This document shows positions 13,572-52,384 of a DNA stretch of 64,000 nt, piece by piece. The notes beneath the pieces are model-generated. The model saw only the letters and a list, made by a program, of their open reading frames with translations, did no database searches and was not told where the DNA came from. How positions within the stretch are numbered: the stretch's first letter is position 1; every line of letters starts with the position of its first letter. Location: NCBI RefSeq assembly GCF_907163105.1, contig NZ_OU015321.1:992001-1056000 (forward strand). The letters run 5' to 3'. A program made the translations under genes and the position numbers. The DNA comes from Cloacibacterium caeni (GTDB lineage Bacteria; Bacteroidota; Bacteroidia; Flavobacteriales; Weeksellaceae).

Positions 13572-13710
13572 TTTATATTATTTTTTATTAAAACTTAATT
13601 TTTGCTAAAATACGGAATTTTTCTCTCACAGATTGCACATATTTATAGAGATTTTGTCAATATCTTTTTTTTCAAAAAAAAAAGATTTGAATGTTTCCAT
13701 ATTGTATTTT

Positions 13711-50693: not shown

Positions 50694-51316
50694 TTAACTT
50701 AAATCTAACTTCATCAATTCATCTAAATCTTTTAAAACAGGATTAATTTCTACATATTTTTGGAAAATATCTCTTTTCGTTTCTTGTTTTTTGATGAGTT
50801 TTTTGTCTTCTCGGTAAGAAACTTCTATTTTGTAGTTATTGACTTTTCTCTTGAAATGATTAAAAAATTGCGCTTGAACTTTCTCAAACTCAGTTTTTAC
50901 CAAATCCGAAGGATATAAAATCTCCACTACATTTTCTTCCTTTTTATGAAGTTTTGCTGTATTTACGGCAAAATAGGTGACTTGGTCTTTTATAAATAAA
51001 TCATTTAGAAAAAATTGCCATTCTGTTTGTAAATCTTTCTCGGTGAAGTGATGATCTGGTAAATCTTCTTCTTTTTTCTGAGGAGTGACAACTACTTCTT
51101 CTTCCTCTTTTTTATTGAGCGTAGCAAGAATACTAAATTCTGAAACAATGGTTTTCTTAACAATTGGTTCAGTAATTTTTTGAACAGTTTTTGGAACAGA
51201 TTCTTCTGGTTTTTTTGTTGATGGTAAAGTTTCTTGTGGTTTTTCTGGAACTACTTTTGGCTTTTCGTTTTCCTTTTTACGAAATAGTGGCGCTAGAATT
51301 AAGAACTTTTTTTTTT
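50694..51316 (-). CDS. dnaX: dnaX tau-specific extension, reached by -1 slippage
   Basis: On the minus strand the reading frame shifted by -1 at the A10 run (51307-51316) is open without a stop until 50694, giving a ~203-residue extension. It starts with KKKKFLILAPLFRKKENEK, runs through a Pro/Lys/Glu-rich linker and ends in a folded domain (QTEWQFFLNDLFIKDQ, VVEILYPSDLVKTEFEKVQ, INPVLKDLDELMKLDLS). The layout (linker then small domain) matches the tau tail that binds the polymerase. Joined to the gamma part, the product is 563 aa. I read it as part of dnaX and not as a separate gene. Confidence 0.8.
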
Positions 51317-52384
51317 ATCATCACTTTTCGCAGCAGTAAGACTGGCCAACTGCATCAAAGCGATTTCTACCGTTAATCTTGGATTTTTAGAATTTTTGTA
51401 ATTAATATCTGCATGATTACAGATTTCTATAGCATCTATGAGTTGCTGTGCACTCCAATTTTTGCTCTGTTCAGAAAACTTTTGTTTCGTGTTCTCACCT
51501 ACTTCTATTAAAGCAAGTGTAGAAGCATTCTGTGCCATCATTAAATCACGGAAATGACTTCCCAATCCACCAATAAATAAATGTGGGTCAAAACCTTTTT
51601 TAATAATATCATTAAAAGCAGTAAGGATTCCCGGAATGCTATTTTCTTTTGCTAAATCTACAATTTTCAAATATTGATCGTAATCTAGAATATTGAGAAC
51701 TTCTGCGGCTTTAGCAAGCGTAATATTTTTTTGAGTAAAAGTAGTAAGTCTATCAAAGATAGAAAGTGCATCTCTCAGTGCTCCATCTGCTTTTTGCGCA
51801 ATTAAAAACAATGCATCATCTTCGTAATTTACACCTTCTTTTTCGGCAATTTTTCTAAGATGTTCCTGTATATCTTCGATAGTGATTCTTTTGAAATCAT
51901 AAATCTGACATCTTGATAAAATGGTAGGAATAATCTTATGTTTTTCGGTAGTTGCTAAAATGAAAATAGCATGAGCTGGTGGTTCTTCTAATGTTTTAAG
52001 AAATGCATTAAATGCTGCTGTAGACAGCATATGAACCTCGTCTATAATATAAATTTTATATTTCCCAACTTGTGGAGCAAAACGAACTTGGTCTGTTAAA
52101 TCTCTAATATCATCTACCGAGTTATTAGAAGCAGCGTCTAATTCAAAGATATTATACGCAAATCCGTCTTCTGAGGTAGAACCATCTTTTTCGTTGATTT
52201 TTCTAGCCAAAATTCTAGCACAAGTAGTCTTTCCTACACCTCTCGGTCCGCAGAAAAGCAACGCTTGAGCCAACTGACTATTTTCTATGGCGTGTTCTAA
52301 GGTATCTGTAACGTGAGATTGTCCTACAACAGTGTCAAACTCTTGCGGACGATATTTTCTTGCGGATACGATAAAATTTTCCAT
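51299..52384 (-). CDS. dnaX: DNA polymerase III gamma/tau subunit, gamma reading frame
   Basis: A 361-aa clamp-loader ATPase. It has Walker A GPRGVGKTTCARILARK (residues ~46-62), Walker B IIDEVHML, the SRC motif (ILSRCQIYDF) and sensor 2 (DGALRDALSIFDRL). The usual four zinc cysteines are reduced. The frame ends SDDKKKSS at a TAA two codons after a run of ten A (51307-51316), right after domain III, so the product resembles E. coli gamma. Slippage at the run adds the tau extension (50694-51316). It is downstream of, but separate from, hppA. Confidence 0.93.
   Translation of the reverse strand: MENFIVSARKYRPQEFDTVVGQSHVTDTLEHAIENSQLAQALLFCGPRGVGKTTCARILARKINEKDGSTSEDGFAYNIFELDAASNNSVDDIRDLTDQVRFAPQVGKYKIYIIDEVHMLSTAAFNAFLKTLEEPPAHAIFILATTEKHKIIPTILSRCQIYDFKRITIEDIQEHLRKIAEKEGVNYEDDALFLIAQKADGALRDALSIFDRLTTFTQKNITLAKAAEVLNILDYDQYLKIVDLAKENSIPGILTAFNDIIKKGFDPHLFIGGLGSHFRDLMMAQNASTLALIEVGENTKQKFSEQSKNWSAQQLIDAIEICNHADINYKNSKNPRLTVEIALMQLASLTAAKSDDKKKSS
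51307..51316 (-). promoter_or_regulatory. A10 slippage/frameshift site in dnaX
   Basis: Ten consecutive A residues (minus strand) lie directly before the in-frame stop AGT TCT TAA. A -1 shift, or one extra A in the mRNA, opens a 200-codon frame. No strong downstream stem-loop is apparent, which favours transcriptional slippage. Confidence 0.7.

Follow-up and report, generated by a model that had tools for sequence, protein, structure and literature searches.

A run of ten A's within dnaX very probably allows the cell to make a short and a long DnaX from a single gene, as judged from the sequence, and we consider it likely that the two clamp-loader subunits, gamma and tau, arise through slippage of RNA polymerase on this A10 run. 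The gene lies in the window, which is the whole stretch of 64,000 nucleotides of Cloacibacterium caeni DNA analyzed here. The two-product reading put forward in the initial annotation held up, being supported by the arrangement of the frames, the conservation of the run, selection on the tail and homology to tau; from these we infer the slip, its level and the presence of both proteins in the cell.

The dnaX gene and its predicted products

The genome, a single contig of 2.72 Mb, contained one full dnaX, and three weaker matches showed identities of 26-37%. Among the matches listed, the nearest named dnaX relatives were those of Halpernia and Chryseobacterium, with 88% identity, which assigns the genome to this part of the flavobacteria. 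The features of the gene, in window coordinates, are as follows.

50694..52384, minus strand: whole dnaX gene, with its ATG at 52384
51299..52384, minus strand: dnaX zero frame, encoding gamma (361 aa, 40.4 kDa), from Pfam and TIGR02397 matches
51307..51316, minus strand: A10 run, candidate slip site; ten A's or more in every one of the 72 family loci
51299..51301, minus strand: TAA that ends the gamma frame, two codons 3' of the run, read from the sequence
50697..51308, minus strand: 204-codon predicted tau tail, -1 frame, with its stop at 50694-50696; from NF011531, selection and AlphaFold2

The run at 51316-51307 was the only A-run of ten within dnaX, and the codons around it in the gamma frame were GAT AAA AAA AAA AGT TCT TAA. 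The gamma product contained the AAA+ domain, the lid and domain III (Pfam PF13177, PF22608 and PF12169) and scored 394 bits against TIGR02397, whose cut-off is 250. The PF12169 match to domain III stopped at residue 352 and the run began at codon 357, which agrees with the earlier description of a gamma frame ending two codons past the A10 at the domain III boundary (stop at 51301-51299). The -1 frame, described there as open for about 200 codons from the A-run, was measured at 204 codons, to 50696-50694. Given one extra A in the mRNA or a -1 ribosomal shift, the predicted tau would have 563 residues and a mass of about 64.5 kDa.

By homology, the tail in the -1 frame is read as a tau tail, because on its own it matched the C-terminus of the NCBI gamma/tau model NF011531 (positions 429-613 of 614, E-value of 6e-11), with a score of 42 bits that is far under the whole-protein cut-off of 685 bits. 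Two further models matched the tail at E-values of 0.03-0.2, and a Pfam search of the tail gave no match. Pairwise comparisons place the tail sequence under purifying selection, as pN was well below pS in all six (L005, L007, L009, L010, L012 and L172). The dN/dS ratio was approximately 0.07 against L005, 0.19 against L007 and 0.13 against L009, the last with a dS of 1.9 that is near saturation; these three pairs are the ones for which a ratio is given, since dS was not estimable against L010, L012 and L172.

The AlphaFold2 model, built with 76 tails, had a mean pLDDT of 82, with the first 80 residues or so being loose and the prediction becoming confident from about residue 81. This predicted structure fits the linker and small folded domain that had been proposed for the tail. 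A Foldseek search of the model against the PDB revealed nothing at an E-value of 0.001 or better; the best matches were DnaA domain I (0.034) and the helicase loader DciA (0.037), and chain 5fku_E of the E. coli Pol III complex, which we take to be the tau end of that polymerase complex, was found at rank 10 (0.33). A profile search with the tail also gave weak matches, to an uncharacterized archaeal protein (E-value of 0.0057) and to DnaA (0.025). Such domains probably share a small fold, and the matches of the model are at most compatible with a tau-like end domain. By homology to other tau tails, the small C-terminal domain of tau would be expected to bind the polymerase.

Conservation of the run and changes of layout

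The gamma frame of 361 codons was the same in all seven genus genomes. The run contained ten A's in six of them and eleven in L010, in which an A also closes the codon that precedes the three AAA codons. We extended the comparison to a family set of 72 distinct loci, genus included, to which the Chryseobacterium locus L012 was assigned by its name. The gene was split in the same way in 70 of these loci, with tau in the -1 frame in 70/70, and was unbroken in the other two. The run had 10 A's in 50 loci, 11 in 19, 12 in one and 13 in two; thus, counting the A's in close relatives, as the initial annotation had suggested, gave 10-13 A's together with the split in 70/72 loci. In an alignment anchored on the run itself, the ten A columns were complete in 72/72 loci, and in the 80 flanking columns (45 upstream and 35 downstream) the commonest base ranged from 32 to 99%. 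Elsewhere in the family genes, AAG made up 20-21% of the lysine codons (337 of 1,676 before the run and 358 of 1,687 in the tail); the unbroken A-run is therefore not mere codon usage.

Between codons 351 and 454, 200 of the 228 distinct dnaX loci sampled had a run of at least nine A's. The sample comprised 80 named loci, which are the best matches listed and hence biased to relatives, and 80 hand-picked from 166 phylum-level matches, in addition to the genus and family sets, because of which the family of the window is over-represented. Judged on the relatives sampled, the A-run device looks widespread in Bacteroidota. The run was ten A's long in 148 of the 200 loci, eleven in 28, nine in 21 and longer in three, and runs of 9-13 A's were found in all three codon phases. 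The predicted tau frame was unbroken in 84 run-bearing loci, -1 in 112 and +1 in four. Among the +1 loci, L027 and L101 were clear; the tail frame of L049 ran off the contig after 124 codons, and L018, on a draft contig and with nine A's, may reflect an assembly error. A run of nine A's was absent in 28 of the 228 loci, including Bacteroidaceae-like ones and several lineages outside the class.

Outside the class of the window, nine A's were about as common as ten, occurring in 13 and 10, respectively, of the 23 run-bearing phylum-group loci (L131, L132, L133, L135, L141, L149, L152, L156, L158, L160, L161, L168 and L170 for this observation), so deep lineages may prefer runs of different length. 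Separately, three loci titled Bacteroidales (L073, L077 and L080) had a gamma-length DnaX frame of 366-383 aa without the A-run; these are possibly gamma-only lineages, or their tail may be lost or located elsewhere.

The layout of the gene, split or unbroken, was then placed on two trees. On a FastTree tree of 194 rows, the 166 run-bearing rows needed 24 layout changes, 23 of which were between unbroken and split, in comparison with 53-66 changes after shuffling of the labels (n=20). With the run-less rows counted in, the well-supported branches forced at least 13 (run-less rows as split) to 14 (as unbroken) changes; the support values of this tree are optimistic, and it carries long-branch warnings. 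An IQ-TREE quick tree, made under LG+G4 with no mixture from 137 rows of which 113 were run-bearing, needed 20 layout changes, 19 of which were between unbroken and split, and its well-supported branches forced 10 to 12. Across the two trees, the layout thus appears to have switched about 20-24 times while the run was retained. Two sister pairs illustrate such changes: L188, split with ten A's, and L197, unbroken with eleven, were near-identical around the run, and the Aquimarina loci L015 (unbroken) and L023 (split) both had ten A's.

We are somewhat inclined to regard the A-run as a frame mixer that operates throughout Bacteroidota. On this reading, RNA polymerase would slip so freely that the frame of the tau tail would matter little, and single-base insertions and deletions at or beside the run would therefore be tolerated. 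Some 20 switches between unbroken, -1 and +1 layouts could then accumulate while selection kept the run at about ten A's, which would fix the gamma:tau ratio.

Probable transcriptional slippage and its alternatives

Under transcriptional slippage, RNA polymerase would slip on the A10 and produce mRNAs with varying numbers of A's. A faithful mRNA, with ten A's or with ten plus or minus three, would meet the TAA two codons on and give gamma of 361 aa. An mRNA with one more A, or with two fewer, would bring the tail into frame and give tau of about 563 aa. In the third frame, translation would end after about nine codons and would also give a gamma-like protein; in the window gene, the nearest stops in the two non-tau frames lay at 2 and 9 codons.

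We compared the frequency of such near stops with control positions in the same genes, as raw counts in which the relatedness of the loci is ignored. Among the single-frame genes outside the family, a stop within five codons was present in the -1 frame in 79/82 (controls 0.31-0.41) and in the +1 frame in 62/82 (controls 0.23-0.37). Among the genes split with a -1 tail, the third frame had such a stop in 28/33 of the named and class groups (controls 0.37-0.42) and in 5/9 of the phylum group, a weak excess (controls 0.31-0.34). Near stops in both non-tau frames outside the family are the Thermus layout and are not called for by -1 ribosomal shifting alone. In the family of the window, third-frame stops within five codons were not enriched (24/70; controls 0.40-0.47), and the two-sided stop argument is therefore silent for this family.

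Long A/T runs are avoided in the window, because only two runs of A10 or T10 were seen, whereas dinucleotide shuffles of the window, which disregard codons, gave a mean of 21.9 (sd 7.4). The second of these runs, at 13674-13683, is an A10 located between two genes, directly after a T run. The whole genome (2.72 Mb) contained 20 A/T runs of at least ten, obtained by merging 25 pattern positions by eye, and 13 of the 20 lay outside any ORF of 80 aa. In addition to dnaX and the intergenic run in the window, these comprised 18 more runs, 12 outside ORFs and six touching one. Five of these six touched ORFs of 100-135 aa or the extreme end of a longer one, and only L242 was deep inside a long ORF. 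A passage of Baranov 2005 interprets the avoidance of runs of this kind within genes as a sign of selection against slippage. In L242 (genome positions 1073571-1073580), the A10 is in frame within an ORF of 383 aa that by eye reads like a sensor histidine kinase, and slippage there would truncate the product.

The preference of the initial annotation for slippage during transcription was upheld as the favored, though not decided, mechanism, because the run is kept across codon phases and tail frames, near stops follow it outside the family, stem-loops and SD-like elements were absent from the genus loci tested, and long runs are avoided.

The strongest competitor is a programmed -1 ribosomal frameshift on A_AAA_AAA within the run, by which tau would be made from a faithful mRNA; we regard this as improbable, although it deserves to be taken seriously. 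An A10 in any phase contains A_AAA_AAA, on which a tandem -1 slip is possible, and all 70 split family genes require the -1 direction. Moreover, a section of Atkins et al. 2016 (PMC5009743) treats reversed dnaX cases, a Chlorobium being named, as ribosomal candidates. However, the zero frame reads AAA AAA AAA AGT, with no zero-frame A_AAA_AAG in the window gene, and A_AAA_AAA is reported to shift far less readily in E. coli. Seven A's would suffice for the ribosome, yet about ten are retained across changes of codon phase. Four relatives, of which L027 and L101 are clear and L018 and L049 doubtful, would need a shift in the +1 direction.

Elements that could stimulate a ribosomal shift were searched for around the run. 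The downstream fold in the window was not beyond that of shuffled sequences (z = +0.45), nor was any of those in the five of seven genus loci tested (mean z of +0.40), which confirms the earlier remark that no strong downstream stem-loop is present. Upstream, in the roughly 20 bases before the run, an SD-like motif of 4-5 bases was found in 0/5 genus loci, 4/33 family loci, 4/21 other split loci and 5/28 single-frame loci. Downstream folds with z below -2 occurred in 6/33 other family loci, 1/21 other split loci and 3/28 single-frame loci, compared with 2/66, 1/42 and 1/56 of the respective control windows. The excess in the family (6/33 vs 2/66) favors the ribosomal reading and makes a structural stimulator possible in some of the family relatives.

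The tRNA complement was also examined. Two genes for tRNA-Lys(UUU) and none for CUU were found among 37 tRNAs, a list that is possibly incomplete, as 150 of 224 candidates were scored. A Thermus-like pair of lysine tRNAs as an argument against ribosomal shifting thus fails here; with tRNA-Lys(UUU) as the only type found, the genome resembles E. coli rather than Thermus, so the tRNA reason given for slippage in Thermus is inapplicable, and this point counts for the ribosomal reading.

Far less probable than either route to tau is that gamma is the sole product and that the tail is either a remnant in decay or a protein with its own start. The gamma and tail frames are indeed separate open frames in the DNA. 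Nevertheless, the purifying selection on the tail (dN/dS of about 0.07-0.19) contradicts decay, and unbroken tau genes have tails homologous to it. That the whole tail is translated on its own was ruled out for the window gene because the first ATG, GTG or TTG of its frame lies 127 codons in. None of the 70 split family tails had such a codon at or 5' of the run; 17/70 had one inside 30 codons, and 6/46 split loci other than those of the family had one at or 5' of the run.

Least credible of all is a sequencing or assembly error in a gene that truly has eleven A's and a single unbroken tau frame: homopolymers are prone to such errors, and the family relative L197 has eleven A's with an unbroken frame, but this explanation, named initially as the main alternative, is practically excluded because the same split was found in 7/7 genus genomes, both single-contig and draft, and in 70/72 family loci, 17 of which have eleven A's through a neighboring base changed to A and keep the split frame.

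Relation to known dnaX systems

The dnaX A-run device is already known. In the part of Antonov et al. 2013 (PMC3711429) that deals with dnaX, 17 two-ORF dnaX genes are described, nine of them with ten A's, and transcriptional realignment is proposed. These genes resemble that of the window in having adjacent ORFs with an A-run at their junction, gamma in the zero frame and tau in the -1 frame; the ten A's are likewise conserved, being exactly ten in 50/72 family loci and at least ten in 72/72. No difference from the window gene was visible, and the window's lineage may already be among their ten-A genes.

The dnaX of Thermus thermophilus uses transcriptional slippage on A9 (Larsen 2000, as cited in passages of PMC1088944 and PMC5009743). 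It shares with the window gene an uninterrupted run of at least nine A's and the making of gamma and tau from one gene, which is here predicted. In Thermus, tau is read from the unbroken frame and gamma results from slippage; in the window gene, which is split, these roles are reversed. The Thermus layout was present in 84 of the 200 run-bearing relatives. The comparison with Thermus drawn at the outset holds up.

The parallel with E. coli was looser than had been claimed. The two genes are alike in the placing of the slip, on A's where the gamma part ends, in two products per gene (both predicted here) and in a sole lysine tRNA type, UUU, among the 37 tRNAs found. According to a section of PMC5009743, tau is the zero-frame product in E. 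coli and gamma the shifted one, so the frame roles are reversed in the window gene. Its zero frame, besides, lacks A_AAA_AAG, and the genus loci tested showed neither an SD-like element nor a stem-loop.

Atkins et al. 2016 (PMC5009743) has a section treating two-ORF dnaX alongside Thermus and E. coli, and a passage of a Blochmannia paper (PMC3017870) suggests slippage as the cause of a different dnaX frameshift, one that lies downstream of the gamma site. Antonov 2013 apart, no survey of dnaX in Bacteroidota came up within the open-access literature, searched mostly by title and start of abstract; nor did we find there a description of how widely the device extends across the phylum in both layouts, or of the repeated layout changes during which the run persists.

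Whether the two forms, gamma and tau, are both required in most bacteria is a matter of debate. A section of a 2012 review (PMC3290774) holds that most bacteria beyond its named examples do not have retained dnaX frameshift signatures. A run of about ten A's that was kept over some 20 frame rearrangements is indirect evidence that much of the phylum is selected for both products. It also gives annotators grounds against labeling such dnaX genes as truncated or frameshifted. The natural A10/A11 sister pairs could serve as material for measuring the gamma:tau ratio.

Several observations on individual genomes were made along the way. No dnaX match over the threshold was obtained in G178, G225 and two genomes of the phylum sample, G024 and G052; the last two are listed as 99% complete, so that divergence of dnaX, or its being split between contigs, may be the reason. 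The DnaX frame of L061 ran into what is presumably a Nextera-like sequencing adapter at the end of its contig, which is likely a contamination artefact. Finally, the dnaX genes of two metagenome bins, L050 (titled Chryseobacterium gleum) and L083 (Chitinophaga pinensis), grouped with those of Flavobacteriales bins; their identities to the window gene were 59% and 57%, compared with 88% for Chryseobacterium lathyri, and the names of both bins look wrong.
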